Source: Megasphaera hominis
GTDB taxonomy: Bacteria; Bacillota; Negativicutes; Veillonellales; Megasphaeraceae
Assembly (NCBI RefSeq): GCF_014269395.1
Contig: NZ_JACOGK010000007.1
Span: 1 to 64,000, forward strand
Length of the DNA: 64,000 nt
Direction of reading: 5' to 3'
The translations under genes and the position numbers were made by a program. How positions within the stretch are numbered: position 1 is the first letter of the stretch; each line of letters starts with the position of its first letter. The notes below the pieces were generated by a model that did not search any database, was not told where the DNA came from, and saw nothing but the letters and a program-made list of their open reading frames with translations. Shown here one piece after another: positions 26,050-54,846 of this stretch.

Positions 26050-26078
26050 TTGACATATACCCCCTTAGGGTATATGAT
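26050..26078 (+). promoter_or_regulatory. csoR-copA promoter with CsoR operator
   Basis: TTGACA (26050-26055), a 17-base spacer and TATGAT (26073-26078). The spacer holds the inverted repeat ATATACCC (26055-26062) CCTTA GGGTATAT (26068-26075), the classical CsoR operator type. CsoR without Cu(I) would therefore block the promoter directly. Confidence 0.9.
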
Positions 26079-26121
26079 GTGTGCAGATACCGGTGGGAGG
26101 TATAGTAAGGAGGTGTACGTG

Positions 26122-26484
26122 ATGGAAGAGAAGGAAAAAGAAAAAGCACTGGAAGTAGAAAAAGAAGCAGAAGTGAAGACGGCTTGCTGTTGCCCCACTG
26201 GCAAAAGCAAGCACCGCGATAAAGAGGGCAAGGAGTATAAAAGCCTCATTTGCCGTTTAAACCGTATTGAAGGGCAAATCCGTGGTATCCGCAATATGGT
26301 CGAGAATGACCGCTATTGCGTCGATATACTGATGCAGGTCAGTGCCGTTCAGTCGGCGCTCAATGCCTTTAATAAAGAACTCCTGGCCCAGCACATCAAC
26401 GGCTGCGTCATCCGCGATATACGGGCAGGCAAAGACGAAGTTGTCGATGAACTGGTAACGATGTTACAAAAATTGATGAAGTAG
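26122..26484 (+). CDS. csoR: Copper-sensing repressor CsoR
   Basis: A 120-residue all-helical repressor of the DUF156 family. The Cu(I) ligands are Cys in DRYCVDIL and the His and Cys in AQHINGCVI. It is released from DNA on binding Cu(I). Beyond the family core it carries an unusual N-terminal extension of about 30 residues that is Glu/Lys-rich and includes three consecutive Cys (TACCCPTGK), a possible extra metal site. The start is ATG 26122, after AAGGAGGTG. It is followed after nine bases by copA. Confidence 0.92.
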   Translation: MEEKEKEKALEVEKEAEVKTACCCPTGKSKHRDKEGKEYKSLICRLNRIEGQIRGIRNMVENDRYCVDILMQVSAVQSALNAFNKELLAQHINGCVIRDIRAGKDEVVDELVTMLQKLMK

Positions 26485-26493
26485 GTGAGATAT

Positions 26494-29400
26494 ATGAAGC
26501 ATGAAAAGTACGCCGTCACCGGCATGAGCTGCTCTGCCTGCTCAAGCCGTGTAGAAAAGGCCGTTTCTAAGCTCGACGGTATGGATAAGGCCAGCGTCAA
26601 CCTGCTGACCAACAGCATGCAGGTCGATTACGATGAAGCAAAGCTATCGAGCAAGGATATTATCAATGCCGTCGTCGACGCCGGTTATGGTGCATCTGTA
26701 GCCGGTGGCAGTACGCAAAAGAGCAACGCAGCCCCGGCGCCCAGTCCGTCTGACATGGCAAAAAAAGCCATGGAGGCTATGAAGAAACGCCTCATTTGGT
26801 CTATTGTATTCCTTATTCCCGTCATGTACCTGGCTATGCATCATATGCTGCTGGAATGGTTTGGTATTCCTGTACCGGACATCATTACCAATACCTTCCA
26901 CGGTGATGCCAACGCCATTACCTTAGGGTTTGCTGAATTTCTCCTCGTTTTGCCCATTATGTACTTGAACCGGGCCTATTATACCAAAGGCTTTCGCACG
27001 CTCTTCGAAGGTGCGCCCAATATGGACAGCCTGGTCGCCATGGGTTCTATGGCCGCCGCTGCCTACGGTGTCTTTGCCATCTTCCGCATGAGCTGGGGCA
27101 TGGGCCACGGCGATTGGGCCCTCGTTGCCACGTACAGTACGAATTTGTACTTTGAATCAGCCGGTATGATCGTCACGCTCATCGATATCGGCAAATATCT
27201 GGAAGCCCGCGCCAAGGGCAAGACCAGTACGGCCATTGAAAAGCTCATGGATTTGGCGCCAAAACAGGCGACAGTCCTGCGTGACGGCGTAGAAACAGTC
27301 GTCCCTGTAGAAGAACTGGTCGTCGGCGATGAAATCGTCGTCCGCCCCGGTGAAAGTATTCCTGCTGACGGCGTCATCAGCGAAGGTACGACCAGCATCG
27401 ATGAAGCCGCCATTACGGGCGAAAGCATTCCTGTAGAAAAACAGGCCGGTGACCCTGTCACGTCGGCAACGCTCAACAAAACGGGCTTTATCCACATGAC
27501 AGCCCGCCGCGTCGGCGCCGATACGACCATCAGCCAGATCATCCAGCTCGTCGATGAAGCCAACTCCAGTAAGGCGCCTATTTCCAAAATGGCCGATAAA
27601 ATCGCGGGCATCTTCGTACCGGCCGTCATTACCATCGCCGTCATTGCCGGCTTGGTCTGGTATTTCCTCTTAGGTGCCGACATGGAATTCGCCTTCTCGA
27701 CAGCCATTTCCATTCTCGTCATTTCCTGCCCCTGCGCCTTGGGCCTGGCTACACCGGTAGCTATCATGGTCGGTACCGGTAAAGGTGCTGAAAACGGCAT
27801 CCTTATCAAGTCCGGGGAAGCCTTGGAAACAGCCCACGACGTAGATACAGTCGTTATGGACAAGACCGGTACCATTACAGAAGGTCATCCGCAGGTGACG
27901 GACATCTGGGTACAGCGGGGTACAGAAGAAGAACTCCTGGCCCTGGCAGCCGGCCTGGAACAGGGGAGCGAGCATCCCTTAGCCGAAGCCATTACGACAT
28001 ACGCAGCGGGCCGGCAGATCCGGCCTGTCGTGATTTCTGATTTTAAAGCACTCTTTGGCCGCGGCATTCAGGGCGTCGTAAATGGCAAGCTGTACTTTGC
28101 CGGCAATACGCGGCTCCTCGAAGAAAAGGGCCTCTCTGCCGCTGCCATTACGGACCAGCTGAACCGCTTTGCCGATGACGGCAAGACGCCCCTTATCTTC
28201 GCTGATCACAGCGGCGTTATCGGTATTATCGCCGCTGCCGACGTCGAAAAGGAAAACAGCGCCGCCGCCATTTCCCTCTTTCACCAGATGGGCATCCATG
28301 TTATTATGCTCACAGGGGACAACCAGCGTACAGCCGAAGCCATCCGCAAACGGCTGCATATCCCGCAAGTCATTGCCGGTGTGCTGCCTCAGGATAAAGA
28401 ACGTCATATAGCGGCGCTGCAGGCTGAAGGCCATAAGGTCGCCATGATCGGTGACGGCATCAACGATGCGCCTGCCCTGGCCAAAGCCGACCTGGGTATC
28501 GCCATCGGGGCCGGTACGGACGTAGCGATTGAAAGCGCCGATGCCGTCCTCATGCGCAACGACCTCCTCGACGCGGTCAGCGCCGTACGGCTGAGCAAGG
28601 CCGTTATTAAAAACATTAAAGAAAACCTCTTCTGGGCGTTTTTCTACAACGTCATTTGTATTCCCTTGGCAGCCGGTGTTCTTTATCCGGCCTTTGGCAT
28701 CCGCCTCAATCCGATGATCGGCGCTGCTGCCATGAGCCTGAGCAGTTTCTGCGTCTGCATGAACGCCTTGCGTTTGCGCTTTTTTAAGCCCTCTGCCGCT
28801 CCTTCAGGACATATGTATCAAGACACGCCCGTTACGGCCGTTACAGCGGCTTCTAGCGCGATTACGCCTTTTACGGCCGAAACAGCCGCTTCTTCCGATG
28901 CGTCTGCCCTCCCTGAAGAACACTACACGCTGCACGTAGAAGGCATGACCTGCAGCCATTGCACGGCTACCGTCACCAAGGCCTTACAGGCCATGCCCGG
29001 CGTCACAGACGTACAGGTCAGCCTGGAAGACAAAACTGCTATGGTCACCAGTACGTCCGCTATCCCGGTAGAAGACTTTGAAAAGGTCATTACCGCTGCA
29101 GGCTACACCTTAGTTCCGGCAGCAGCGCCGGAACACTATACACTGCACATTGAAGGCATGATGTGCGGCCATTGCACGGCTACCGTCACCAAGGCCTTAC
29201 AGGCCATGCCCGGCGTCACAGACGTACAGGTCAGCCTGGAAGACAAAACCGCTGTGGTCACCAGTACGTCCGCTATCCCGGCAGAAGACTTTGAAAAGGT
29301 CATTACCGCTGCGGGCTACACCTTAGTTCCGGCAGCAGCGCCGGAACACTATACACTGCACATTGAAGGCATGATGTGCGGCCATTGCACGGCTACCGTC

Positions 29401-29772
29401 ACCAAGGCCTTACAGGCTATGCCCGGCGTCACAGACGTACAGGTCAGCCTGGAAGACAAAACCGCTGTGGTCACCAGTACCTCTGACATCCCGGCAGGAG
29501 ATTTTGAAAAGGTCATTACTGCTGCAGGATATACATTAGTTCAAGGAAAGGAAGAATCAACGAACATGAAAACAACACTGAAAATCGAAGGCATGATGTG
29601 CCAGCACTGCCAGAAACATGTACATGAAGCATTGGCTGCCATGGATGGCGTAACAGCTGTCAGCGTAGACTTGGAAGGGAAAAAAGCAGAAGTAGAAACA
29701 AATCGCGAAATCCCGACTGCCGAATTTGCCAAAGTAATTGCCGACGCCGGCTACGAACTCGTTACCGCCTAA
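26494..29772 (+). CDS. copA: Copper-transporting P-type ATPase with four C-terminal HMA domains
   Basis: A 1092-residue P1B ATPase, clearly longer than usual (700-820). Order: one N-terminal HMA domain (GMSCSACSSRVE), eight-helix core with ISCPCALGLATP, phosphorylation site DKTGTITEG, GDGINDAPAL; then a Thr/Ala-rich linker (about residues 770-808) and four C-terminal HMA domains with CSHC, CGHC, CGHC and CQHC. CopA members normally carry such domains only at the N-terminus. It exports Cu(I) from the cytoplasm. The start is ATG 26494 (AGGTGAG upstream). The last domain begins with its own ATG and may also be made separately. Confidence 0.95.
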   Translation: MKHEKYAVTGMSCSACSSRVEKAVSKLDGMDKASVNLLTNSMQVDYDEAKLSSKDIINAVVDAGYGASVAGGSTQKSNAAPAPSPSDMAKKAMEAMKKRLIWSIVFLIPVMYLAMHHMLLEWFGIPVPDIITNTFHGDANAITLGFAEFLLVLPIMYLNRAYYTKGFRTLFEGAPNMDSLVAMGSMAAAAYGVFAIFRMSWGMGHGDWALVATYSTNLYFESAGMIVTLIDIGKYLEARAKGKTSTAIEKLMDLAPKQATVLRDGVETVVPVEELVVGDEIVVRPGESIPADGVISEGTTSIDEAAITGESIPVEKQAGDPVTSATLNKTGFIHMTARRVGADTTISQIIQLVDEANSSKAPISKMADKIAGIFVPAVITIAVIAGLVWYFLLGADMEFAFSTAISILVISCPCALGLATPVAIMVGTGKGAENGILIKSGEALETAHDVDTVVMDKTGTITEGHPQVTDIWVQRGTEEELLALAAGLEQGSEHPLAEAITTYAAGRQIRPVVISDFKALFGRGIQGVVNGKLYFAGNTRLLEEKGLSAAAITDQLNRFADDGKTPLIFADHSGVIGIIAAADVEKENSAAAISLFHQMGIHVIMLTGDNQRTAEAIRKRLHIPQVIAGVLPQDKERHIAALQAEGHKVAMIGDGINDAPALAKADLGIAIGAGTDVAIESADAVLMRNDLLDAVSAVRLSKAVIKNIKENLFWAFFYNVICIPLAAGVLYPAFGIRLNPMIGAAAMSLSSFCVCMNALRLRFFKPSAAPSGHMYQDTPVTAVTAASSAITPFTAETAASSDASALPEEHYTLHVEGMTCSHCTATVTKALQAMPGVTDVQVSLEDKTAMVTSTSAIPVEDFEKVITAAGYTLVPAAAPEHYTLHIEGMMCGHCTATVTKALQAMPGVTDVQVSLEDKTAVVTSTSAIPAEDFEKVITAAGYTLVPAAAPEHYTLHIEGMMCGHCTATVTKALQAMPGVTDVQVSLEDKTAVVTSTSDIPAGDFEKVITAAGYTLVQGKEESTNMKTTLKIEGMMCQHCQKHVHEALAAMDGVTAVSVDLEGKKAEVETNREIPTAEFAKVIADAGYELVTA
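28918..29547 (+). repeat. Tandem 213-bp repeat encoding HMA domains
   Basis: Three direct units of 213 bases (71 codons) start at 28918, 29131 and 29344. Units two and three are nearly identical, unit one slightly diverged. Each encodes EHYTLHxEGM-CxxC and the rest of one HMA domain. The high identity suggests recent expansion or ongoing homogenization; the number of domains may vary among strains. Confidence 0.92.
29566..29772 (+). CDS. Possible internally started copper chaperone (CopZ-like) at the end of copA
   Basis: In frame with copA, ATG 29566 opens a 68-codon reading frame that is exactly a complete CopZ-like HMA protein (MKTTLKIEGMMCQHCQKHV...). It is preceded by a purine-rich AAGGAAAGGAAG about seven to ten bases upstream, acceptable as a ribosome binding site. 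This last domain is also less similar to the three repeated domains. It may be a copZ gene that was fused to copA, with an internal start retained. Not proven; independent translation is an inference. Confidence 0.35.
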   Translation: MKTTLKIEGMMCQHCQKHVHEALAAMDGVTAVSVDLEGKKAEVETNREIPTAEFAKVIADAGYELVTA

Positions 29773-30363: not shown

Positions 30364-31779
30364 ATGTCCATCCAATTAGCCATTGTCATTCTATACATTT
30401 TATTGCTTTTCGCCATATCTTTTTACGTCAAACGCCGGGCCAGTCAAAACCCGACGGAATACCTGTTTGCAGGCCGCCAGTTCTCAACCGGCCTCGTCGC
30501 CGTCAGTATTACCGGCATGGCCGTCGGTGCCGCATCTACTGTAGGCGTAGCTGAAAGTGCCACCAAAATCGGCTTGGCCGCCGGCTGGTACAACGCCGCC
30601 TGGGCCATTGGTGCCATCGTCATGGGCCTCGTCGCTGCCGGCAAATACCGCTCCCTGGAATGTACGACCATTCCGGAGCTCTTTGAACGGAGCTACGATA
30701 AAAAAGCACGTGTCATCAGCGTTATCGGCTTATCCCTGATCATGATCTGTATTACATCCCTGCAATATGTTGCCGGCGGCTCTATCCTGCACGCCCTGAT
30801 GCCGGATATTTTCTCGTTCCACGCCGGGATGATCGTCAGCGCCGTCGTCTTCATTGGCATTACGGCCATTGGCGGTCTTTGGTCCAGCGGTCTTTCCAAC
30901 GTCTTAAGTGTTGCCGTCATTTATATCGGCATTGTCTACTCGATGATCCGCATTCTCATGCGTGATGGCGGCATTTCTGCTATCAACGCGGCCTTGCCAC
31001 AGGCAGACTTCGGCTGGTTCGATCCCTTTGGCGGCCTCACGGCAGCCATGCTGCTCGGCTGGATTATCGTCATGACCACCCAGGCCATTACCGCCCAGGG
31101 ACCGGTACAAATTGCCTGCGGTGCCAAAAACGCCCACGCTGCCCGTAAGGGCTTCATCCTCGGCGGGTTCCTCATTTTTCCGATCGGCTTCATTTCCGCC
31201 GTTCTCGGCTTAGCCGCCAAAGCCCAGTTCCCCGATTTAAATCCGACCATGGCCTTGCCGCAAATCATCATGAGCCTCGATCCGTTTTCCTCCGGTATGA
31301 CCTTAGCTGCCCTGTGGGCTGCTGACGTATCGACAGCCTGCACGATTCTCCTCGGCGCCGGTACACTCATTGCCCAGGATATTTACAAGCGGTTTATGAA
31401 CCCGGGTATTTCAGAACACTCGTACGTACGGGCAAACCGCCTGATTATCCTCTTCGTTGGTTTAGGCACCCTCTGGCTGGCCTTTAACGCCGTCGGGATT
31501 GTCAAGGTCATGCTCATCGGCCTCTCCCTGACAACGGCCTTTACCTTGGTTTTCCTGGCTACCATGTTCTGTCCGTCCCTGTGCCGTAAAAACACAGCCT
31601 TCTGGACGACCCTGGTTGGTATTGTCGGCCTCTTCGCCTGGCAGTTTTTCCCGGAAATCCATTTCCTGCCTCACGTCATTTACTTCGAATGGCTGATCTG
31701 CATCATTACGCTTCTCGTCGTCCGCCTGGTCGATAAGACGCCGATTCAGCCACCGCAGGTAAAGGCCCAGGCAAAATAA
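30364..31779 (+). CDS. Sodium:solute symporter (SSS family)
   Basis: A 471-residue membrane protein with about twelve to thirteen helices. It begins with the SSS pattern FYVKRRASQNPTEYLFAGRQ, then GMAVGAASTVGVAESATKIG, and has a conserved ADVSTACTILLGAGTLIAQDIYKRF segment near residue 320 (in part: DVSTACTILLGAG). The family imports solutes such as pantothenate, proline, monocarboxylates or sugars with Na+. The substrate cannot be told. A GGGGGAGG ribosome binding site precedes ATG 30364. Terminator at 31791-31829. Confidence 0.85.
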   Translation: MSIQLAIVILYILLLFAISFYVKRRASQNPTEYLFAGRQFSTGLVAVSITGMAVGAASTVGVAESATKIGLAAGWYNAAWAIGAIVMGLVAAGKYRSLECTTIPELFERSYDKKARVISVIGLSLIMICITSLQYVAGGSILHALMPDIFSFHAGMIVSAVVFIGITAIGGLWSSGLSNVLSVAVIYIGIVYSMIRILMRDGGISAINAALPQADFGWFDPFGGLTAAMLLGWIIVMTTQAITAQGPVQIACGAKNAHAARKGFILGGFLIFPIGFISAVLGLAAKAQFPDLNPTMALPQIIMSLDPFSSGMTLAALWAADVSTACTILLGAGTLIAQDIYKRFMNPGISEHSYVRANRLIILFVGLGTLWLAFNAVGIVKVMLIGLSLTTAFTLVFLATMFCPSLCRKNTAFWTTLVGIVGLFAWQFFPEIHFLPHVIYFEWLICIITLLVVRLVDKTPIQPPQVKAQAK

Positions 31780-31790
31780 ACGTATCTGCA

Positions 31791-31829
31791 ACGGTCCTGA
31801 CCCACACCACGTCAGGGCCGTATTTTTTT
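31791..31829 (+). terminator. Terminator of the SSS gene
   Basis: Stem ACGGTCCTGAC/GTCAGGGCCGT (31791-31801, 31811-31821) followed by a seven-T run. Confidence 0.9.
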
Positions 31830-31849
31830 CTCTGCAGCGGCGCTGCCTT

Positions 31850-31865
31850 TGTTTCACGTGAAACA
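31850..31865. other. parS: parS site 1
   Basis: Exact 16-base parS consensus TGTTTCACGTGAAACA, the ParB loading site. It lies between the SSS terminator and the second parS. Confidence 0.95.
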
Positions 31866-31892
31866 AAAAACAACATATCCATCTGACAAACG

Positions 31893-31936
31893 AAGAACCT
31901 CCCGTATGTTTCACGTGAAACATACGGGAGGTTCTT
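31893..31936. other. parS: parS site 2 inside a 44-base perfect palindrome
   Basis: The exact parS 16-mer at 31907-31922 is the centre of a perfect 44-base inverted repeat (arms begin AAGAACCTCCCGTATG). As RNA the palindrome would be a 20-base-pair hairpin just after the histidine kinase gene (stop at 31939), so it can act as terminator and as ParB loading site at once. Confidence 0.92.
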
Positions 31937-31938
31937 TA

Positions 31939-33060
31939 TCATGCAGCAGGAAAGGTAATCGTAAAAACCGTTCCTTTGCCGACTTCACTAGCAGCCTGTA
32001 TCGTGCCCCCCTGGCTAAGGACAAACTGCCGCGCCAGAGCCAGGCCAATACCACTGCCACCGCTTTTCCGGTTACGTGATTTTTCGGCCCTGTAGAAGCA
32101 TTCAAAAATATGCTCAAGATCTTCCTTTTCTATACCAGGCCCTGTATCGGCAATCTGCAAGCGCACCTGACGCTTGCCTGCCGCTTCTTCCAGACAGGTG
32201 GTAATCGTAATATCGGCCGCCTCCGGCGTGTAGCGGATAGCATTATTCAAAATATTGTAAATCACCTGATTGGTCCGGTCCTTATCGAGCTGTAAGAGTG
32301 GCACTGCGTCATCTAAGTGTACGGTCACATGGAGATTCTTTTCATCAAAGAGCGGCTGCAGCATACCTGCCGCCCGGGTGAGGAGAAGATTGAGATCGAC
32401 GTCACTCTTGTGGAGGACCAGCTCGTTTACTTCTGCCAGGGACAGGTCCCGCAAGTCTTGGACCAGGCGGTTCAGGCGCAGGATTTCATCTTCCATAGAA
32501 AGAAAATGTTCTTTATCTGCCGGAATAACGTCATCGATCATGCCTTCCAGATTCCCCTGCATGATGGCTAAGGGCGTCCGCAGCTCGTGGGCAATACTGG
32601 CAAAGAGCTGCCGCCGCATTGTATCGTTATATTCCAGCTTACGGGACATATCATTAAAGGTATCGGCCAGCATGCCTACCTCGTCATTCCGGTCTACCCT
32701 GACGGTTTGGCCAAAGGAGCCTTCGGCTATGTCATGGACGGCGTCCGTCAATTTTCGCAACGGTTTGACAAAACTGCGTACGAAAAGCCAGCTCACGAAG
32801 ACACTGATGCAAATCATAACGGAACCAACCCAAAAGAGAGACTGGTGCACAGACGACAGGTATATATTTTCCGGTGAATTGTGCATCATCATACCGTGCA
32901 TCCCCATGGGCATACCACCCATGGCATGGGTGTACAAATAATTGGAAAAATGCGTATCCATCTGGTAATTCACCAAAAAGAGAAGCGTACCGATAGTAGC
33001 CGCAAAGAGCAGGAAAATGATACCGGTCAGGCGAAAAACCATACTATTGTATTTATTCAC
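31939..33060 (-). CDS. Sensor histidine kinase with Met/His-rich periplasmic loop
   Basis: A 373-residue BaeS/CusS-like kinase: first transmembrane helix (about 8-31), a short periplasmic loop with HAMGGMPMGMHGMMMH (residues 45-60), second helix (about 73-95), HAMP, phosphoacceptor SIAHELRTP (His 158) and ATPase motifs NNAIRY, DTGPGIE and GGSGIGLALA. The loop, with seven Met and three His in 16 residues, suggests direct sensing of Cu(I) or Ag(I). The start is GTG 33060, with GGAGG eleven bases upstream; it overlaps the end of the response regulator by eight bases. Confidence 0.9.
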   Translation of the reverse strand: MNKYNSMVFRLTGIIFLLFAATIGTLLFLVNYQMDTHFSNYLYTHAMGGMPMGMHGMMMHNSPENIYLSSVHQSLFWVGSVMICISVFVSWLFVRSFVKPLRKLTDAVHDIAEGSFGQTVRVDRNDEVGMLADTFNDMSRKLEYNDTMRRQLFASIAHELRTPLAIMQGNLEGMIDDVIPADKEHFLSMEDEILRLNRLVQDLRDLSLAEVNELVLHKSDVDLNLLLTRAAGMLQPLFDEKNLHVTVHLDDAVPLLQLDKDRTNQVIYNILNNAIRYTPEAADITITTCLEEAAGKRQVRLQIADTGPGIEKEDLEHIFECFYRAEKSRNRKSGGSGIGLALARQFVLSQGGTIQAASEVGKGTVFTITFPAA

Positions 33061-33760
33061 GGTGATGTGCGCCTCCATCGAATTTATAGCCAATACCATA
33101 GACGGTCAGGATATATTCCGGATGGGCCGGATCGCGCTCCAGTTTCTTGCGCAGATTACGAATGTGCGTGTCAATAGTCCGTTCATAGCCTTCAAAGCCA
33201 TAGCCGCCCTGAGTACGTTCCATGAGCTGCATACGGCTAAAAACACGGCCCGGCGAAGACGTCAATACTTCGAGCAGGTTAAATTCCGTTGGCGTCAGGC
33301 ATATGGGCTCACCTGCACGGAGGACCGTATATTGGTCTTTATCGATGACCAAATCGGCAATTTCATAACGGGCTACATGCTGAATGACTTCGCCACGGGC
33401 CCGGCGCAAGAGGCTGTACACACGGGCAATGACTTCCTTCATATGGAAGGGCTTGGTAATATAATCGTCACCACCCATATTGAGCCCGACAAGACGGTCC
33501 GTTTCATCATCCTTGGCCGTCAGAAAAATAATAGGAATATCACTAAAGGAACGGATACGGCGGCACACTTCAAAACCGTCCATACCAGGCAGCATGAGAT
33601 CGAGGAGCATGATCTGAGGTGTTTGCGTACGCACCGTATGGATCGCCGCAGCGCCATCCGTTGCCGTATAGACAATAAATTTCTCCTGTTCAAAATACGA
33701 GCGAAGCAAAGAACAAAGTTTTTCGTCGTCGTCGACGATGAGGATCGAATTTGTAATCAA
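33053..33760 (-). CDS. OmpR-type response regulator
   Basis: A 235-residue regulator. Receiver domain: acidic pocket VDDDE, phosphoacceptor Asp 54 (LLDLMLPGMDG), FLTAKDD. C-terminal winged helix: ICLTPTEFNLLEVLTSSPGRVFSR and RTIDTHIRNLRKKL. It starts at TTG 33760, six bases after AGGAGGG. Partner of the Met-rich sensor kinase. Three tandem 11-base repeats upstream of the CX5C-repeat gene at 36899-36931 have the spacing OmpR-type regulators use, so that gene and the Met-rich membrane protein are likely targets. Confidence 0.92.
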   Translation of the reverse strand: MITNSILIVDDDEKLCSLLRSYFEQEKFIVYTATDGAAAIHTVRTQTPQIMLLDLMLPGMDGFEVCRRIRSFSDIPIIFLTAKDDETDRLVGLNMGGDDYITKPFHMKEVIARVYSLLRRARGEVIQHVARYEIADLVIDKDQYTVLRAGEPICLTPTEFNLLEVLTSSPGRVFSRMQLMERTQGGYGFEGYERTIDTHIRNLRKKLERDPAHPEYILTVYGIGYKFDGGAHHRE

Positions 33761-34105
33761 AGGCTTACCCTCCTGCCATTTATAGCATCATATCTGTATT
33801 GTATCACGCCATGCGGGGAGAGGGTAGTTAGCAGTTTCTATAAACAGCGTATAATCATTTAATAAATACATGATTGTACGCTGTTGTATTTTATTTGATA
33901 AACAAAATAATATCAGTTATAATAATAAAAGAAAACAAATGAGATGCTAACTTATATATAAAAGTGAATTCACAGAACCTGCCTACAAAGCGGAATAATT
34001 ACGTTAAACAAGGGAATTTGCCTATCAAATGAACAGAAAAAGGTAGACGAATCGTGGTTTGTAAAGAGTTACCTGCGTAATTAGATTTATTTTAATCTCT
34101 AATGG
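33761..34105. other. Intergenic region with imperfect inverted repeat
   Basis: No gene. It holds the upstream region of the response regulator gene (minus strand) and an AT-rich stretch before the TnpB-like gene. A 16-base inverted repeat with one mismatch (33843-33858 AACAGCGTATAATCAT; 33870-33885 ATGATTGTACGCTGTT) encloses an 11-base AT loop. It could be a terminator-like structure, a regulator site or the left end of the TnpB-bearing element. Confidence 0.5.
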
Positions 34106-35536
34106 ATGAGAAAGAAGATGAGGAGAATGATTGCTTCTAAAACGTATACCATTGAAACTCGGCTCAATCAAAGAGAAAATGCCGGGTTAATCGAATATGT
34201 AAAAGAGTATCATCTCCTCTATGGCAAGATGCTGCGTTTTACATGGCATCGGTATAACAATGGTGGCAGGTTCTCTGTAAAGAAAAGCGCGTTTAATACC
34301 ATTTTGCAAAACCGCTTTCATGTGAATAAGCGTCTGGCCAATTCAGTTATTTCTGAAGTAGAAGGGTTATATAAAGCTCTGTATCAACTAAAATGGTATG
34401 AGTTTAGCCAGCTGAGTCGTAAAATAAAAAAGCTTGATAAAAAGCGAAAGAAGCTTTGCGAAAAAGTAGCCGCATTAAAGGAAAGGTCCCGAAACAATCA
34501 ATTATCTCCTTCCGCCTTAACCTATTATCGCCAGCAGAAAGAAAAAATCTTTTATACCAATCAAAAGCTGAATAAACTAAAGCAGAAACAAGCCAATTTG
34601 TTGAAAGAGATTCAAAGCAAGGATTTACATCTATGCTTTGGTTCAAAGAAACTGTTTCGGGCCCAATATCATCTGGCAGAAAACAAGCTGACGAGTCATG
34701 CAATCTGGTTAGACCGTTTTCGTAAGCAAAGAGATAACCGGTCTTTATATATCGGCTCAAAAGACGAACATCGTTGCAACCAGATTGTACAATTAACACC
34801 CATGGTACATACAAGCAAAGGGAATCGCTTCGCTATTCAATTACGAAAAAATACAAAAAACCGTGCATATGTTTATGGAACTTGTATCTTTTCCTACCTG
34901 AGCGGGCTGCTTGCCAAAACGATTATTAAGCAAGACCACGGCATCAGCTATCGCATCGTCTTTCGCGGCAATGCCTGTTACCTGCAAGCCATGGTAACGC
35001 TTGATAGGGATACCGACGATTGTAAAACGAGAAAGACCTATGGAACAATCGGTTTGGACTATAACGACGGGTTCATCGAATTAGCCGAAACCAATGACAC
35101 GGGAAATCTCGTCAGTCTAAAACACTATCGGTTACAGTATCATGGTACGGGAAAGAAAGCAGAATCCGAAATCCGTGAAGTCACCTCTCACATCGTAAAT
35201 TATGCAATATCTGTGGGCAAAGACATCGTCATCGAAGAGTTAGATTTTCGCAAAGCAAAATCGGAGACAGCTACAGCAAAGTCTGATCAGGGCAGGGCAT
35301 ACAACAAAATGATTCATGCCTTCGATTATTCCAGGTACAAGAAAACGTTTGAAAATTGTTGTTATAGACGAAATGTTCATGTAATTCAAGTCAATCCTGC
35401 TTACACAAGCAAGATTGCCAAACAAAAATATTGCGACAGAAAGAAATTGACAATTCACCAGGGAGCAAGATATGTCATTGCCCGTAAAGGGCAAGGCTTT
35501 GTTGATAAAAATATAAAGCAAAAGAAATCCGCATAA
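34106..35536 (+). CDS. TnpB-like protein (IS605 OrfB group) without zinc ribbon
   Basis: A 476-residue RuvC-fold protein related to TnpB. N-terminal helical and coiled-coil part (about 95-190), then RuvC motifs: TIGLDYNDGFIELA (first Asp) and IVIEELDFRKAK (Glu), and a C-terminal VNPAYTSKIAKQKY. The usual CxxC zinc ribbon after NPAYTSK is absent and the third motif reads TIHQGARYVIARKGQGF, with His where TnpB has Asp. This is the divergent accessory TnpB group. No TnpA is present. Base composition is visibly AT-richer than the neighbours. The start codon is uncertain (34106, 34118 or 34127). It splits a minus-strand metal gene cluster. Confidence 0.8.
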   Translation: MRKKMRRMIASKTYTIETRLNQRENAGLIEYVKEYHLLYGKMLRFTWHRYNNGGRFSVKKSAFNTILQNRFHVNKRLANSVISEVEGLYKALYQLKWYEFSQLSRKIKKLDKKRKKLCEKVAALKERSRNNQLSPSALTYYRQQKEKIFYTNQKLNKLKQKQANLLKEIQSKDLHLCFGSKKLFRAQYHLAENKLTSHAIWLDRFRKQRDNRSLYIGSKDEHRCNQIVQLTPMVHTSKGNRFAIQLRKNTKNRAYVYGTCIFSYLSGLLAKTIIKQDHGISYRIVFRGNACYLQAMVTLDRDTDDCKTRKTYGTIGLDYNDGFIELAETNDTGNLVSLKHYRLQYHGTGKKAESEIREVTSHIVNYAISVGKDIVIEELDFRKAKSETATAKSDQGRAYNKMIHAFDYSRYKKTFENCCYRRNVHVIQVNPAYTSKIAKQKYCDRKKLTIHQGARYVIARKGQGFVDKNIKQKKSA

Positions 35537-35735
35537 CCAAACACTCCCGTTAAGAAAGAACTACTTCCAAGAGATGGTAGTCCTTGTACTTAACGGGAGC
35601 TTAAAACAGACATCTACGATCCTATTTTGTTGTGCCACTTAGCAATAAGAGAAACTAAATATGATTGTCGGAAAACCATGAGCGTACCGTAACGCTCGAA
35701 ATCCTCAGGACGTTGTCTACCCTATTTTGTATGAT
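35537..35735 (+). ncRNA. Structured region 3' of the TnpB-like gene, candidate guide-RNA scaffold or element end
   Basis: Directly downstream of the gene lies an 11-base perfect stem CTCCCGTTAAG/CTTAACGGGAG (35548-35558 and 35588-35598) that encloses an inner ACTAC/GTAGT stem. Further on come the hairpin GAGCGT/ACGCTC near 35680-35697 and two near-identical blocks ending CCTATTTTGT (35611-35630 and 35714-35730). TnpB proteins use an RNA copied from the 3' end of their gene, so this could be such an RNA or the right end of the element. No family match can be claimed. Confidence 0.35.
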
Positions 35736-35757
35736 TTTATTTTACGGTAGGTTTCCA

Positions 35758-35773
35758 TGTTTCACGTGAAACA
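35758..35773. other. parS: parS site 3
   Basis: Exact TGTTTCACGTGAAACA, directly beside the terminator of the Met-rich membrane protein gene. Confidence 0.95.
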
Positions 35774-35800
35774 AATCCCCCATGCCGTAGCATGGGGGAG
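35774..35800 (-). terminator. Terminator of the Met-rich membrane protein gene
   Basis: Minus-strand stem CCCCCATGC/GCATGGGGG with a four-base loop, followed by ATTTGTTT, which is the first half of parS site 3. Confidence 0.85.
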
Positions 35801-35818
35801 AAAAGAGAAAAGCAGAAA

Positions 35819-36451
35819 TTATTTGTTAGCATCGGAGCTCTGCTGATTCATATTCATATTTTGCTGATTGTTCATCTGCTGATCATTCATTTGGTGATGC
35901 ATGTGCTGATGATCCATCGGCTGATTGCTCATATCATGGTTCATCTGTCCGTTTTGCATGTTCATCTGCATGTTCATGGTCTGCTGCGGCGGTACATAGC
36001 CGGCGAGCTGCGGATCAGCCATGCCGAAGACCATGGCCATGTGGGTAAAGAAGATGAAGAGAATCATGAGCAGTGTGTGACGCTTCAAGCGTTTTTCTAC
36101 ATCGGCATTCTTGCAAACAACGCCCAATTCGAAGAGGATAAGCAGTACTGCCGGAATAATAGCCAAAACGTAGCTCCATACGGCAATGTAGTCAATAGGA
36201 CCACGCCATTGAATGGTCGGCATGTACGAAATGACAATGTAGCCGGCGGCAAAGATGAAGAAAACGCCCAAGATGAGACTGGCTGCATGACTTAACGAAT
36301 CCCAGCGGGCACTGCGTGCGTCGCCATCAATCAGGGAAATCACACCGGCAGCCAAAATGGTTTCTGCCAAAACCATCGGTACCAGCATAAAAAGGATCAA
36401 AAACCAAGGCTGATGGAGTGAAAGGAGCTCCATATAATGAGTCATTACCAT
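35819..36451 (-). CDS. Membrane protein with Met/His-rich C-terminal tail
   Basis: A 210-residue protein I cannot assign to a characterised family. It has four predicted helices (about 12-35, 55-78, 88-110, 125-145) and, after residue 155, a tail made almost only of Met, Gln, Asn, His and Asp: about twelve Met and five His in 50 residues (NMQMNMQNGQMNHDM, DHQHMHHQM). Such tails bind Cu(I) or Ag(I) in known resistance proteins. The gene lies 31 bases after the CX5C-repeat gene, apparently in one operon, and upstream of a sensor with a Met-rich loop. GGAGGA precedes ATG 36451. Proposed role: envelope copper binding. Confidence 0.75.
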   Translation of the reverse strand: MVMTHYMELLSLHQPWFLILFMLVPMVLAETILAAGVISLIDGDARSARWDSLSHAASLILGVFFIFAAGYIVISYMPTIQWRGPIDYIAVWSYVLAIIPAVLLILFELGVVCKNADVEKRLKRHTLLMILFIFFTHMAMVFGMADPQLAGYVPPQQTMNMQMNMQNGQMNHDMSNQPMDHQHMHHQMNDQQMNNQQNMNMNQQSSDANK

Positions 36452-36482
36452 AACTAGTTCCTCCTATATATGTACAATATCA

Positions 36483-36839
36483 TTACCGCTGAGCCGCAAG
36501 GCCACGACAGCCACGCGGACCGGCACAGGTGTAGCCATTCTGGTTAGAAGACGCTGTGTCCCCGTTTCCCGTCGTAGCCGCCGTGCCCGTATAGCAATTC
36601 TGCGGTCCCTGGCAGTACGTACCTGCTGCCGGAGCCGGACAATCCTGCGGTCCCTGGCAATAGGCTGACGCATTCACATTACTTGTATTGCCATAGCAGT
36701 CCTGTGGCCCCTGGCAATATGTGCCATACCCGTTTTGTGCCTCATTCTGTGCACCTGCAGTGGGGGCTGCAGCAAAAACAGAGAAGCTGGCAACAGCCGC
36801 GATAGCGGCCAAACCTAGGGCAAGTGTTCGTCTCATCAT
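36483..36839 (-). CDS. Small exported protein with four CX5C repeats
   Basis: A 118-residue protein with a signal peptide (cleavage near residue 23, SVFA). The mature part has three copies of YCQGPQ(D/N)C (Cys 42/48, 61/67, 76/82) and a variant YTCAGPRGC (Cys 105/111), separated by Asn/Thr/Gly/Ala-rich spacers. I do not recognise the family. The repeated Cys pairs could bind a soft metal such as Cu(I) or form disulfides in the periplasm. AAGGAGG lies six bases before ATG 36839. It heads an operon with the Met-rich membrane protein behind tandem repeats that look like response-regulator sites. Confidence 0.75.
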   Translation of the reverse strand: MMRRTLALGLAAIAAVASFSVFAAAPTAGAQNEAQNGYGTYCQGPQDCYGNTSNVNASAYCQGPQDCPAPAAGTYCQGPQNCYTGTAATTGNGDTASSNQNGYTCAGPRGCRGLAAQR

Positions 36840-36872
36840 GTCTACCTCCTTTTACTTTTGTCTATGCCTATA

Positions 36873-36931
36873 GTATAGTAAAGGCATGCGAAAAAGTTGT
36901 GAAGATATTATGAAGATATTGTGAAGATACA
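36873..36931 (-). promoter_or_regulatory. Promoter with three tandem 11-base repeats
   Basis: On the plus strand GTGAAGATATT, ATGAAGATATT and GTGAAGATACA stand head to tail (36899-36909, 36910-36920, 36921-36931). On the minus strand they cover the -35 position relative to a TATACT (36873-36878). An 11-base period is typical of OmpR/PhoB-type sites, which suggests activation by the nearby response regulator. Confidence 0.7.
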
Positions 36932-36973
36932 AAAATTCCCGCCTTGTTTCACGTGAAACAAGGCGGGAATTTT
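36932..36973. other. parS: parS site 4 inside a 42-base perfect palindrome
   Basis: Exact parS at 36945-36960, the centre of a perfect 42-base inverted repeat (arm AAAATTCCCGCCTTG plus half parS). It follows the malic enzyme stop by 15 bases and ends in TTTT on the minus strand, so it doubles as that gene's terminator. The 11-base repeats begin immediately next to it. Confidence 0.92.
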
Positions 36974-36988
36974 ACATCTGCAAAGAGC

Positions 36989-38242
36989 TTAGCCGTGCAG
37001 TTTGTCGATCATCGCGTGCAGTTCTGCAATTTGCGTGGCTGCTTCCTGACGAATTTCTTCAGGATCGCGTTCAATACGGGCCGAGCCTGATTCCATAGCG
37101 GCCTTGGCTACCGCAGCTGCCACAGCCGGTGCTACGCGTTCATCAAAGGCATCGGGAATCACGTACTCTTCCTGTAATTCCGCATCACTAATGAGGCCGG
37201 CAATGGCGTAGGCCGCAGCAATCTTCATATCTTCGTTGATATGGCGGGCCCGTACAGCCAGGGCACCGCGGAAAATGCCCGGGAAGACCAAGACGTTGTT
37301 GATCTGGTTCGGAGAATCCGAACGGCCTGTACCGACGACGCGGGCACCGGCGGCCTTGGCAGATTCATAATCCGTTTCCGGAATGGGGTTAGCCATAGCA
37401 AAGACGATGGCATCCGCATTCATGGAGCGGATAATTTCTTTTGTAAAGATATGGGGTGCCGAAACGCCGAGGAGCAAATCAGCGCCTTTTACGACGTCAG
37501 CTAAGGTGCCCTGTACGTGTTCCTTGTTAGTCAGGCTGGCCAGTTCAGCCTGTACGCTATTGAGGCCTTCCATGCCTTCATATAAAGCACCAAAGCGATC
37601 TACCATGATGACCTGTTCCGCTCCGGCGCGAACGAGGAGGCGGCCAATAGACGCACCGGCAGCACCGGCACCGTTGATGACAATCTTAGCCGTTGCCAGC
37701 TTTTTGCCTACGACACGCAGGGCACCGATAACGCCGGCGAGAGCCGCAATAGCCGTGCCGTGCTGGTCATCGTGGAAAACGGGGATATCCATTTCCTTTT
37801 TCAGTGTCGTTTCTATTTCATAGCATTTAGGTGAAGAAATATCTTCCAGATTAATGCCGGCAAACGACGGCTGGAGCATTTTTACCGTTTCAATGAATTT
37901 TTGCGGATCCTTCGTATCCAAGCAGATGGGTACAGCATTGACGCCGCCAAAGACTTTGAATAGGATGGATTTCCCTTCCATAACCGGCATGGCCGCTTCA
38001 GGACCAATGTCGCCCAAGCCCAGTACACGCGTACCATCGGAAACGACGGCAATCATATTGCCACGACAGGTCAAGTCGAAGGATAAATCCTTATCCTTCA
38101 CAATTTCCCGGCACGGCTGGGCTACACCCGGCGTATAGAGCGTACTCAAATCATCCCGCGTCTTCAGGACAGCCCGGGGGAGCGTTTCAATGATACCTTT
38201 TTTACCACGTCGTACAGCCATAGCGGCTTCGTCAAAATTCAT
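36989..38242 (-). CDS. Malic enzyme, NAD(P)-dependent
   Basis: A 417-residue bacterial malic enzyme: oxidative decarboxylation of malate to pyruvate. Visible: LYTPGVAQPCREI, GNMIAVVSDGTRVLGLGDIG (partly), catalytic DDQHGTA, the nucleotide motif INGAGAAGASIG and FAMANPIPE. It links dicarboxylate and pyruvate metabolism in the cytosol. It is monocistronic; its terminator is the parS palindrome. Confidence 0.93.
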   Translation of the reverse strand: MNFDEAAMAVRRGKKGIIETLPRAVLKTRDDLSTLYTPGVAQPCREIVKDKDLSFDLTCRGNMIAVVSDGTRVLGLGDIGPEAAMPVMEGKSILFKVFGGVNAVPICLDTKDPQKFIETVKMLQPSFAGINLEDISSPKCYEIETTLKKEMDIPVFHDDQHGTAIAALAGVIGALRVVGKKLATAKIVINGAGAAGASIGRLLVRAGAEQVIMVDRFGALYEGMEGLNSVQAELASLTNKEHVQGTLADVVKGADLLLGVSAPHIFTKEIIRSMNADAIVFAMANPIPETDYESAKAAGARVVGTGRSDSPNQINNVLVFPGIFRGALAVRARHINEDMKIAAAYAIAGLISDAELQEEYVIPDAFDERVAPAVAAAVAKAAMESGSARIERDPEEIRQEAATQIAELHAMIDKLHG

Positions 38243-38370
38243 ATCCTCACCTCATCATCTAATCTGGAGACTGATACATAGCACAGCCTTTTTTCTATAC
38301 ACCGTTATCTTATACTGATTTTTACAGTAAGTCAAAGGATTTTACCTGCCAGCCCCTTTAGGCCCGTCAG

Positions 38371-39387
38371 TTATACAGTTTCTCCTGTCAGTGCCGCCCA
38401 GGCTTCATTGGCCCGTTCGACAAACATCTTCCGGACAGCCGCATTTTCTCCCAGGCCATGGATGTACACGCTGACAGAAAAACCGGCCTTTTCGAGCAGC
38501 GTCTTATGCGAATCGTCTGCCGTACCGGCCATGTCATTGTTGGCGTGGTCGCCGGCGACGAGCATCATCGGCATGAGCAGGACCTCCCTAATGCCCCGGG
38601 CCTTGAGCAGGGGTATAATTTCCCCAAGTGCCGGCCAGCCTTCGACGGAATAGACATAGACCCGGTCCAGACCAGCCTGGTTCAGGCGGTGCTGGACGAC
38701 GGCATAATAGGCATTGGCCGGATGGAGCGTACCGTGGGCCATGACCAGGATGGCTTTATTTTCCCCTAGGGCCGCCGGGGGAAATTGCGTCGCAAAGGCC
38801 CGGGCAAATTCGGCTACATCGTCACGCTGCCCTTCTTGGCCCATCCAATAGAGAAGGGGCGTACCTAAGGTCATCTTCTTAAAATTGGCCTTATATAAAT
38901 CGAAAATGGCCGTCATATAACTATATTCCATGCCGGGAATGATATCGAGAGAAGCCAGGGCTACGCGCGTACAGCCAGCCGTCAGGAGTTCTTCCAGAGC
39001 CTGTTCCGGTGTAGGTATGACACGGCCTTCCTTAGCCCGGATCCGGTCGATGATGATATGGGACGTAAATGCCAAGGCCACACGGGTATCCCTGTGGGCA
39101 GCCTGAATAGCCGCGACAGTCGCATTGATGTTCAGGCGGCGGCTTTCCGCATAGGTCGTACCGAAGCTGACAATAAGGAGGGCGTCGACGTTCTCCCTGT
39201 GGGCGAGCTCCGGATTTTCATAGGTCCGTACGCCAATGGCTGCAGCCTGGCGCAAGGCCGGCGTCGGGTCCTTGACGGCCGGATGCAGCCGATACGACGC
39301 CTTGGCCGGCACACCCGTATAGGCACCACAGCCGGTGATCCCCATAATAGAACATAGACATACACGTTTCCATAGCTTACGAAACAT
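38371..39387 (-). CDS. cbiK: Exported sirohydrochlorin cobaltochelatase-type protein CbiK
   Basis: A 338-residue class II chelatase of the CbiK family. It starts with a lipoprotein-like signal (SIMGITGCGAYTG, Cys 20). The chelatase domain has LLIVSFGTTYAESR, the conserved MAHGTLHPANAYY (metal-binding His) and MLVAGDHANNDMAG. CbiK inserts Co(II) into sirohydrochlorin. Envelope-localised CbiK proteins are known from sulphate reducers, where they are tied to metal or heme handling rather than to synthesis alone. A cobalamin riboswitch precedes it, so it is B12-regulated. No other cob genes are in view. Confidence 0.88.
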   Translation of the reverse strand: MFRKLWKRVCLCSIMGITGCGAYTGVPAKASYRLHPAVKDPTPALRQAAAIGVRTYENPELAHRENVDALLIVSFGTTYAESRRLNINATVAAIQAAHRDTRVALAFTSHIIIDRIRAKEGRVIPTPEQALEELLTAGCTRVALASLDIIPGMEYSYMTAIFDLYKANFKKMTLGTPLLYWMGQEGQRDDVAEFARAFATQFPPAALGENKAILVMAHGTLHPANAYYAVVQHRLNQAGLDRVYVYSVEGWPALGEIIPLLKARGIREVLLMPMMLVAGDHANNDMAGTADDSHKTLLEKAGFSVSVYIHGLGENAAVRKMFVERANEAWAALTGETV

Positions 39388-48250: not shown

Positions 48251-48964
48251 TTATAACGGATTTTTGGCAGCCAGTGTAGGCTTGCGCGGATATTTTAAGG
48301 GACTCTTGGCGTTCTTGCGGATGTAGAGGACAGCCCGCTTATCTGTAAGCCCCGGCAAGGTCACAGGACGCACAGCTTCCAGGGTCCCTCCTAGCACAGC
48401 CAGAGCATGGCCGGCTTCTTTGATTTCCTCTTCATATTGTGCCCCCTTAAGGGCAATGAAAACACCGCCTGTACGCACATAGGGCAGTGCCCATTCGCAG
48501 AGAATATTGAGGCGCGCAACGGCCCGGCTGGTAACGACATCAAACTGTTCCCGGTAGGTCTTGTCATGGGCTTTTTCTTCAGCCCGGCCGTGGAGAAATA
48601 CAGCTCCTGTCAGCGTTAGTTCCGTCGTGACCTGTTCCAGGAAGCGCAGCCTTTTTTGCAGGGAATCGAAAAAAGTCATGTGCAGGTCCGGCCGGTAAAT
48701 GAGCAGGGGAATACCGGGAAAACCGGCGCCGGTACCTAAATCGAGGCAGGCAGCGCCCTTAGGAAAATACGCTTCCTCATAGCAGGAAAGGCTGTCTGCC
48801 ATGTGCTTGACCGCTACTTCTTTGGGTTCTGTAATGGCCGTCAGGTTCATGACCTTGTTCGTTTCCAAGAGGAGTTCTTCAAAGCGGCAGAACTGGCTGA
48901 GCTGCTGCTCGCTCAGGGATATATGCATAGCCGTCAGAACGGCAGTCAATTCATTACGAAACAT
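48251..48964 (-). CDS. rsmG: 16S rRNA (guanine527-N7)-methyltransferase
   Basis: A 237-residue SAM-dependent methyltransferase; the SAM motif is LDLGTGAGFPGIPL and a Ser-Arg-Ala motif VTSRAVARL follows. It methylates G527 of 16S rRNA. The start is ATG 48964 after GGGAGGG, overlapping the mnmG stop by 11 bases; the longer frame has no support. End of the origin-proximal minus-strand series; in many Firmicutes parA would follow here, but does not. Confidence 0.93.
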   Translation of the reverse strand: MFRNELTAVLTAMHISLSEQQLSQFCRFEELLLETNKVMNLTAITEPKEVAVKHMADSLSCYEEAYFPKGAACLDLGTGAGFPGIPLLIYRPDLHMTFFDSLQKRLRFLEQVTTELTLTGAVFLHGRAEEKAHDKTYREQFDVVTSRAVARLNILCEWALPYVRTGGVFIALKGAQYEEEIKEAGHALAVLGGTLEAVRPVTLPGLTDKRAVLYIRKNAKSPLKYPRKPTLAAKNPL

Positions 48965-50837: not shown

Positions 50838-50873
50838 GGAAATTCCTTCCTTTGCGTAATGTATGAACTCGTA

Positions 50874-52256: not shown

Positions 52257-52275
52257 AGGAAGAGTTCCTCCTTTC

Positions 52276-52308
52276 AAAAAAACCCGGTGCCAGCACCGGG
52301 TTTTTTTG
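52276..52308. terminator. Terminator after jag
   Basis: Perfect stem AACCCGGTGC/GCACCGGGTT (52281-52290, 52293-52302) with a two-base centre and T/A runs, just before the mnmE ribosome binding site; probably reduces readthrough from jag. Confidence 0.85.
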
Positions 52309-52325
52309 CAGGTGTTAGCCTGCGT

Positions 52326-53174
52326 TTATTCTGCGTAATAAATGACTACATGACGGTAAGGATCCTGTCCTTCACTTTCCGTCCGGACGTGTTCCTTATC
52401 CTGCAGTGCCACGTGAATGATCTTGCGTTCATACCCGTTCATCGGTTCTAAAACTACTTTATCGCCTTTTTTCTTAATACGCCCGGAAAGGCGTACAGCC
52501 AGCTGTTTTAACGTTTCTTCACGGCGATGGCGGTAATTTTCTACATCGAGCATGACAAAATGACGGCCTTCATGACTCTGATTAATCGTCAGATTCGTCA
52601 GATACTGCAGCGCATCCAGCGTTTGTCCGTGCTTACCGATGAGAATGCCCAGATTTTTCCCGTGCAAGTGGAGGACAATCTTGTCCGGCTTGATCATCTT
52701 TTCGATCATCACTTGCAGGCCCATATTGGCAAGGACTTCCTGTAAGAAGCGTTTTGCCTGAGCGGCGGCTTCTTCCGCTGTGTATACGGGTTTCGTTTCT
52801 TCTGTATCGGCAAGGGCTACAGCCGGTGCTGCTTCCGGTGTGTTAGCAACAGCAGGTGCTGTCGTTTCCGGAGCCGTAGCGGCAGGAGCCACTTCTTTTT
52901 CTTCTATAACTGCTTTGCTGTCTTCTTTTTCAACAGCAGGCACAGGTACTTCCTGTGCGGCAGCCGCCTCTTCTTGCTGACGGAAGAGCACATGGGCTGC
53001 TTCTTTCTTAGCCGTTACCCGTACTTGGGCAGGCTTGCTGCCAAGACCGAGAAAACCGCTTTTCGGTTCAGCTAATACTTCGACATCAGCTTCATCACGG
53101 GTTAATCCCAATTGAACCAGGCCAGAGCGGACGGCATCTTCGATCGTTTTGCCTGTAGCTTCTACACTGTTCAT
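52326..53174 (-). CDS. jag: RNA-binding protein Jag/KhpB
   Basis: A 282-residue protein: Jag-N domain (about 1-50, ATGKTIEDAVRSGLVQLG and KSGFLGLGSKPA), a long Ala/Glu/Val-rich linker (about 65-130), KH domain (LHLHGKNLGILIGKHGQTLDAL, in part) and R3H domain (PMNGYERKIIHVAL). In Gram-positive relatives it binds RNA with KhpA and affects envelope growth. It overlaps yidC by four bases. Confidence 0.93.
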   Translation of the reverse strand: MNSVEATGKTIEDAVRSGLVQLGLTRDEADVEVLAEPKSGFLGLGSKPAQVRVTAKKEAAHVLFRQQEEAAAAQEVPVPAVEKEDSKAVIEEKEVAPAATAPETTAPAVANTPEAAPAVALADTEETKPVYTAEEAAAQAKRFLQEVLANMGLQVMIEKMIKPDKIVLHLHGKNLGILIGKHGQTLDALQYLTNLTINQSHEGRHFVMLDVENYRHRREETLKQLAVRLSGRIKKKGDKVVLEPMNGYERKIIHVALQDKEHVRTESEGQDPYRHVVIYYAE

Positions 53175-53863: not shown

Positions 53864-53922
53864 CTCCTGTCGAATAAAAAGGATAAAAAATCAGACAGCC
53901 TCTTTTTCATCTGTCTAATTTA

Positions 53923-54488: not shown

Positions 54489-54514
54489 CGTAAGTTCCTA
54501 AGCTGTAATTCCTA

Positions 54515-54568: not shown

Positions 54569-54572
54569 AAAA

Positions 54573-54707: not shown

Positions 54708-54846
54708 TGTAGACACCTCCTTCGTATCGATACAACGTATATAGAATTTACACCATAACAGTGTAATTATAGACAATCCGACTGCTCATGTCAATCATTT
54801 CCGCTTACATTTTATTTTTTCCGGTCTTGCATGAGGCGAAAAAAAG

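Follow-up and report, generated by a model that had tools for sequence, protein, structure and literature searches.

A candidate copper/silver-responsive envelope module with a DUF6803 membrane protein in Megasphaera hominis and related bacteria

Gene content of the locus

We analyzed a 64,000-nt stretch of DNA from Megasphaera hominis (contig NZ_JACOGK010000007.1, positions 1 to 64,000; hereafter the window), which carries at 31939..36839 a set of minus-strand genes for a sensor histidine kinase (HK), an OmpR/PhoB-type response regulator (RR), a membrane protein of family DUF6803 and a small exported protein with CX5C repeats. An earlier note on this DNA had ascribed soft-metal features to these four genes; all of them are present, and its coordinates and residue counts hold.

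The CX5C gene (36483..36839, minus strand), recognized by sequence reading, encodes 118 aa with a signal-peptide-like N-terminus and 8 Cys arranged in exactly four CX5C units (CQGPQDC twice, CQGPQNC and CAGPRGC), the repeat number that had been claimed; a protein search with it returned only two homologs, P0121 and P0122. Next to it, the DUF6803 gene (35819..36451, minus strand) encodes 210 aa with four hydrophobic segments and a 60-residue tail that, as described earlier, holds 12 Met and 5 His (binomial P ~2e-7 for Met at 3% background). Residues 1–158 match PF20617 with 184 bits against a gathering cut-off of 27 (E 3e-54), and Pfam gives this family no function. The Met-tailed protein is thus a member of a catalogued Pfam family and no orphan. 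A terminator-like hairpin (35776..35799, minus strand; consensus match only) lies 3′ of the gene.

The RR gene (33053..33760, minus strand; TTG start) matches Pfam Response_reg and Trans_reg_C, and the HK gene (31939..33099, minus strand) matches HAMP, HisKA and HATPase_c. For the kinase, GTG at 33060 is the more likely start judging from the sequence, since 33099 falls inside the RR gene. Its short extracytoplasmic loop contains 7 Met and 5 His in 37 residues (P ~1e-4 for Met), and both this loop and the OmpR-type assignment of the regulator are borne out by sequence and Pfam. A TnpB-like gene (34106..35536, plus strand) sits between DUF6803 and RR, separating the two gene pairs as previously read, and is placed outside the module.

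On the plus strand, a gene for a csoR-type metal-sensitive repressor (26050..26484; PF02583 104 bits, cut-off 22.8, E 5.4e-30) adjoins the copper P-type ATPase gene copA (26485..29772; TIGR01511 583.7 bits, cut-off 397), whose product has five HMA stretches by Pfam, one N-terminal and four C-terminal. Both exceed their family cut-offs, and the end of copA lies 2.2 kb from the kinase gene, in line with the 2 kb noted before; a sodium:solute symporter gene and a DUF1294 gene lie between them. An Rfam search of 31000–38500 gave no credible match.

Conservation across the class

Direct relatives of the DUF6803 protein were found on 19 contigs, which belong to Megasphaera, Propionispira, Propionispora, Pelosinus, Acidaminococcus, Campylobacter concisus, a Veillonellaceae isolate and one metagenome-assembled genome each of Methylocystaceae and Campylobacterota. 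DUF6803 is present in 75 of the 380 genomes in the class to which the Veillonellaceae isolate belongs, taken here to be the Negativicutes, and in 16 of 150 genomes in the class of C. concisus. Neighbourhoods were counted for 72 of the 75 genomes, leaving out G088 (only 3.5 kb), G174 (a 26-residue match) and G297 (a contig end).

An RR and an HK lie within 5.5 kb of DUF6803 in 40 of these 72 loci (39 by the gene caller and L001, whose intact regulator was found separately), so that the genes are neighbours in related genomes, as the module proposed in the earlier note demands. Their order varies by lineage between DUF-RR-HK, RR-HK-DUF and divergent arrangements, which argues for function rather than mere synteny. 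Among the 31 genomes without an adjacent two-component system, 25 encode a close kinase elsewhere. A neighbourhood kept without functional coupling, as mere Megasphaera synteny near the replication origin, would fit a locus that lies 15–23 kb from dnaA amid parS-type sites; we consider it highly improbable in view of the class-wide link between DUF6803 and the two-component system in differing gene orders, the close kinases encoded at a distance and a DNA box that tracks the kinase (see below).

In the loci without an adjacent two-component system, no recurrent copper family appeared among the DUF6803 neighbours, among the families listed (25/90 and 25/82); in the same tally, a Pfam scan of 111/124 neighbours listed, HMA occurred in 1/58 and 2/53 and CbiK in 4/53, again among the families listed. 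C. concisus is another context for the DUF6803 family: in L006–L008 and L010 (~5472–8633) the gene directly follows those of a 563-aa and a 237-aa protein, which in L006 match 4Fe-4S families and, weakly and below cut-off, a nitrate-reductase-delta/TorD-like family.

The joint occurrence of all four genes in other Negativicutes was confirmed for the recurrent DUF6803, RR and HK but not for the CX5C gene, whose positional counterpart lies directly upstream of DUF6803 in only 5 of the 72 loci (L002–L005 and L101), all from Megasphaera relatives. Two of these counterparts are CX5C-like (L004, L101) and three are Cys-His-Gly-Tyr types (L002, L003, L005); judged by these sequences, the CX5C protein is a fast-evolving positional family. 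The tails of two distant DUF6803 proteins (L080, L091) themselves contain Cys/Gly/Pro stretches, a hint that exported Cys modules may work together with the DUF6803 family. One Megasphaera-type genome, G347, has the module kinase and no DUF6803 match; it carries two tandem small exported Cys/His-rich genes (L218, 2380–3260), each preceded by its own TCTTCAYAA box. A bufferin-type copper peptide was considered for the CX5C protein and found no support (NF050166, BufA2, 13.4 bits against a cut-off of 60), and an MNIO/MbnB-type gene (PF05114) was found in 0 of 12 Megasphaera-type genomes, with a control search positive in 2 of 14.

The TnpB-like protein scores 34.0 bits with TIGR01766 (cut-off 32) and 35.6 bits with NF040570 (TnpB RNA-guided nuclease), far under the cut-off of 100. 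No TnpB relative was found in the 82 loci compared, and the grouping of RR and HK with DUF6803 thus recurs where the insertion is missing; a search of 60 related genomes also returned none, although an empty answer from that search is weak. The gene apparently represents a private insertion. Of 31 loci with both genes on the same strand, 29 have a DUF6803–RR gap of 1–391 bp; the gap is 925 bp in L004 and 2.8 kb in L101, compared with 2.06 kb in the window. In L101 it holds a group II intron reverse transcriptase gene and a nucleotidyltransferase/substrate-binding pair, and in L004 open reading frames resembling that pair, so the gap looks like an insertion hotspot. By eye, the TnpB-like protein lacks the usual C-terminal zinc-finger cysteines and the third acidic residue, and an inverted repeat, CTCCCGTTAAG/CTTAACGGGAG, lies 3′ of its gene at 35544–35599.

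A shared direct repeat upstream of DUF6803

Upstream of DUF6803 we found tandem 11-bp direct repeats with the consensus (NN)TCTTCAYAA, mostly 65–105 bp before the start codon. In the window they span 36887..36930 (minus strand) as TATCTTCACAA-TATCTTCATAA-TATCTTCACAA and a degenerate fourth copy, and the last good repeat contains the first, −35-like hexamer of a promoter-like site, TTCACA-17-TACTAT (36875..36903, minus strand; consensus match only). A repeat that overlaps the −35 hexamer is expected of an OmpR-class activator. Scored over 200 bp with a matrix of 42 instances, 65 of 73 upstream regions exceeded the 99% quantile of a control set (615 other upstream regions of these loci), comprising 37 of 39 with an adjacent two-component system, 27 of 33 without one, and the window. 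The 73 regions are those of the 72 loci and the window; for the window, L002–L005 and L101, the start of the CX5C gene was used.

As a plain pattern with at most one mismatch, the repeat matched 84 times in 16 genomes, each tandem copy being counted separately, compared with 13 times for the reversed pattern. It is found at the DUF6803 operon in 13 of the 15 scanned genomes that contain DUF6803 (exceptions G091 and G313). In G001 this operon is the sole match in the genome, and in the window only the CX5C promoter matches, with two perfect copies that overlap. Presence of the box follows that of the kinase: it occurs in 62 of 65 kinase-positive and 1 of 6 kinase-negative genomes (Fisher P 2.5e-5, relatedness uncorrected). 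For this comparison L083 was set aside (truncated regulator, no adjacent kinase), L018, which has a broken DUF6803, was scored box-negative, and L123 and L125 were scored box-negative at DUF6803, their boxes lying farther up, before the regulator gene and the preceding Met-rich gene. We predict that the tandem TCTTCAYAA repeats are the binding box of the RR.

Sensor kinase and response regulator

Against the CusS/CzcS model (TIGR01386) the HK reaches 169 bits, below the cut-off of 292.55, and against the CusR/CzcR model (TIGR01387) the RR reaches 157.4 bits, below the cut-off of 279.2, so that we do not class the module as CusRS. The best NCBIfam scores of the two proteins include the BaeS and BaeR models, each under its cut-off. 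Counted in the best 25-residue N-terminal window, Met and His number 11 in the kinase of the M. hominis locus, a median of 7 in the module kinases (n=40) and 3 in 29 control kinases (P 1e-9), the controls being those usable from 30 loci with other kinases of 14 genomes. In a phylogenetic tree, 41 neighbouring module kinases (that of the window included) and 27 distant ones are split from the 29 controls by one branch with support 0.97, a split that arises partly by construction, since the distant kinases were picked by similarity to the kinase of the window. By eye, most module kinases have retained a Met where helix 1 ends and a His where helix 2 begins. The Met-rich loop, proposed earlier as the mark of the sensor, is a trait of the kinase in the window, but across the kinase clade the loop ranges from Met-rich to almost Met-free.

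The DUF6803 membrane protein

Residues M3, M7, M22, M140, M144, H125 and H137 are invariant (at least 98%) in 50 DUF6803 representatives. Among core columns, 5 of 9 with a Met consensus are invariant compared with 6 of 74 with an L/I/V/F/A consensus (P 0.0015, same 50 representatives, kinship ignored), and the tails are composed of 17% Met and 12% His. An AlphaFold model shows four long helices and a disordered tail (mean predicted local distance difference test score 68, under 50 in the tail). Positive residues between helices 1 and 2 and between helices 3 and 4 suggest that the N-terminus and the tail are periplasmic, in which case most invariant Met and His would face the periplasm beside the tail. 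A Foldseek search with the model gave no match at E ≤ 0.001, VIA-align recovered only helical-bundle background and a family-profile search of solved structures gave only chance-level matches; we therefore leave the fold unclaimed.

These data bear on what DUF6803 might do. It may be a haem- or quinone-binding membrane protein of the same regulon, cytochrome b-like and possibly a cupric reductase, with the invariant His as haem ligands. A third His column, at residue 5, is Asn in 26 of 81 sequences, so that no other helix offers a fixed His as partner, and the structure matches are no better than helical background; we judge such a function quite unlikely, marginally more so than a module that answers to another metal (see below). 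A four-helix transporter or receptor, rather than a buffer, that moves Cu(I) across the inner membrane or loads it there, with the tail only as a collecting arm, would account for the invariant Met/His that are predicted to lie close to where helices 1 and 4 end on the periplasmic side, for the invariance of E30, D87 and H125 and for the 67 of 72 loci without a small exported Cys protein directly upstream. On balance we hold this somewhat unlikely, though clearly less so than haem binding. A broader proposal, which we advance only tentatively, is that DUF6803 represents a new class of inner-membrane copper receptor/transporter, in which four helices would form an invariant periplasmic Met/His site fed by the disordered Met/His tail. 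It would then be the commonest element of a CusRS-independent copper/silver regulon in Firmicutes that have an outer membrane, and exported thiol buffers specific to single lineages, the CX5C protein among them, would be its satellites.

Evidence on the metal

Of the 16 scanned genomes, 6 (G084, G012, G308, G009, G090 and G313) also have the box ahead of a TolC-adaptor operon. The pump gene comes next in G084, where it is whole, and in G012, G308 and G009, where it is cut by the locus end; the loci of G090 and G313 end before any pump gene. In family scans, the pumps of G084, G012 and G009 exceed the CusA/CzcA cut-off, the adaptors of G084 and G308 exceed theirs, and the TolC-like proteins of G084 and G090 stay below theirs; the other labels in these operons were given by eye from sequence resemblance. 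In an alignment with E. coli CusA, M573, M623, M672 and E625 are conserved in the G084 pump (numbering by a manually counted offset of 7, with agreeing spacings of 50 and 49), residues described as Cu(I) ligands of CusA in PMC8092243. A motif search found the three triad methionines in G012 as well as in G084; the triad was thus checked in two pumps, that of G084 whole and that of G012 for the most part.

Further copper genes accompany the module. A CopZ gene adjoins DUF6803 in G086 (L122) with a multicopper oxidase gene nearby, 7 loci from relatives of Megasphaera have copA next to the module, and boxes in G009 and G090 precede genes for small exported proteins rich in Met. The repeat shared with CusA-type pump operons and the Met triad in two pumps strengthen the copper/silver assignment of the earlier note, and we regard copper/silver as well supported as the metal of the module from these comparisons. 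Separately, G084 holds a 25-kb copper island (L209–L210) with 11 box matches at 7 places, which comprises the CusCBA-type pump operon, the module kinase, LemA, DUF6803, a CopZ-like HMA protein, NicO and a DsbD_2-HMA-cupredoxin fusion.

The module might instead answer to nickel, cobalt or zinc, or to general envelope stress in the manner of BaeSR. The BaeS and BaeR scores among the best for HK and RR, a CbiK with an export-like N-terminus encoded 1.5 kb from the module in the window, CbiK, NicO and acetyl-CoA synthase neighbours in a few genomes and a Zn/Cd-like ATPase beside the module of G090 point in this direction. The presence of this switch before pumps that carry the methionine triad of CusA, CopZ and multicopper oxidase in the DUF6803 neighbourhood, and thioether ligands, which fit Cu(I)/Ag(I) and not Ni, Co or Zn, argue against it, and we consider another metal or general stress rather unlikely.

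Several observations weigh against copper/silver sensing by this module, including the neighbours with CbiK, NicO and acetyl-CoA synthase just named. (i) The P-type ATPase of G090 fits Zn/Cd/Pb models best, exceeding the cadmium and, barely, the copper cut-off, which slightly lowers our confidence in copper/silver. (ii) CusA/CzcA exceeds its cut-off in 0 of 12 Megasphaera-type genomes, with lower-scoring RND pumps in 10 of the 12; the pump link is thus one of regulon homology outside the genus, and within it the module would have to rely on CopA, DUF6803 and CX5C/His-rich proteins. (iii) In C. concisus, DUF6803 lacks both two-component system and box and stands beside the 4Fe-4S protein and the weak TorD-like match. 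(iv) The 42 upstream regions used to train the box matrix were also among those that it was tested on, and relatedness is uncorrected in all tests, so that the plain-pattern scan and the association with the kinase matter more. (v) The kinase loop is almost devoid of Met in several members, for example L074 and L096, and Met-richness is therefore no fixed feature of the kinase. (vi) Met/His counts of loop and tail are uncorrelated across loci (rho 0.01), a comparison that counts neither way because many loops were mis-parsed, either left unparsed or parsed as empty. Taking both sides together, we find it likely that kinase, RR, box, CX5C protein and DUF6803 form a copper/silver-responsive envelope-stress module.

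Proposed mechanism and relation to known systems

In the mechanism that we propose, the kinase would use Met/His ligands in the stretch between its two membrane helices to sense Cu(I)/Ag(I) in the periplasm and, as is typical of its family, phosphorylate the OmpR-type regulator, which would bind the TCTTCAYAA repeats over the −35-like hexamer and turn on the CX5C–DUF6803 operon, as suggested by their co-occurrence. The exported CX5C protein may buffer periplasmic Cu(I)/Ag(I) with its cysteine thiolates. At the inner membrane, DUF6803 would capture the metal by means of its tail of periplasmic Met/His residues and of the fixed cluster M3, M7, M22, H137, M140 and M144, and might then store it or pass it on, the least certain step. 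The adjacent CsoR–CopA pair, from what is known of these families, would handle cytosolic copper. The same predicted switch also precedes operons for CusCBA-type pumps, and genes for further small exported proteins rich in Met/His, in some of the larger genomes of the class.

The module probably works like CusRS–CusCFBA of Escherichia coli. Like Cus, it has a two-component system that probably senses Cu(I)/Ag(I) in the periplasm, and in some of the larger genomes of the class its predicted switch also stands before a pump that keeps the methionine triad of CusA. It differs in an HK and RR under the CusS/CusR-type cut-offs and in the 12 Megasphaera-type genomes without a CusA over cut-off, and we know of no Cus counterpart of DUF6803 or of the CX5C protein. 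The small Met/His-rich periplasmic metal binders SilE/PcoE and CusF are likewise exported, low-complexity proteins with soft-metal ligands, and their Met/His spacing resembles by eye that of the DUF6803 tail; the CX5C protein, however, uses cysteine instead of Met/His, and in DUF6803 the tail is joined to a membrane domain of four helices. Bufferins (BufA, MNIO-modified copper peptides) are small exported Cys-containing copper buffers, as the CX5C protein would be, and the latter has a weak NF050166 score; it remains far under that cut-off, and no PF05114 gene was found in the 12 Megasphaera-type genomes.

A literature search returned no paper on DUF6803 and none on copper sensing by a methionine-rich histidine kinase, and a title-level search on copper in Megasphaera/M. 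elsdenii, Pelosinus and Negativicutes gave no apparent description of the system. From the sequence comparisons, the module is probably a Cus-like copper regulon with undescribed effectors. DUF6803, a domain without known function in 75 of 380 genomes, becomes a testable candidate copper/silver protein, and a regulator, a kinase and an exact predicted DNA site can be named for a regulon without description in the literature searched. Copper is a common feed additive, and the module suggests a way in which anaerobic Firmicutes with an outer membrane, from gut and rumen, may deal with copper in the envelope when they lack a Cus-type pump.

Further features of the window

A region at 48251–59265 contains rsmG, mnmG, mnmE, jag and yidC followed by dnaA, dnaN and a RecF/SMC-type gene, which places the module 15–23 kb from the probable oriC. 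Five perfect copies of the 16-bp sequence TGTTTCACGTGAAACA, which we take to be a parS-type site from the parS consensus, lie at 31850, 31907, 35758, 36945 and 39710, within 8 kb around the module, and no further perfect copy occurs elsewhere in the window. One of them lies in the stem of a terminator-like hairpin. In 9 of 10 Megasphaera-type genomes (exception G349), all perfect parS-type sites found (1–5) lie within ~4 kb of the module kinase or DUF6803; in L001 and L004 such a site is located inside copA, where it encodes VSRET.

The copA gene of the window contains a 213-bp tandem repeat at 28918–29542 (2.9 copies, 94%) within the four C-terminal HMA domains, of which the copA genes of L001 and L004 show two by eye, possibly a recent amplification of copper-binding domains. 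At 1931–8245 the window further carries a direct duplication of at least 3.07 kb (91.6% identical; query limited to 5000) with putative cyclase genes and an MFS transporter gene aboard.

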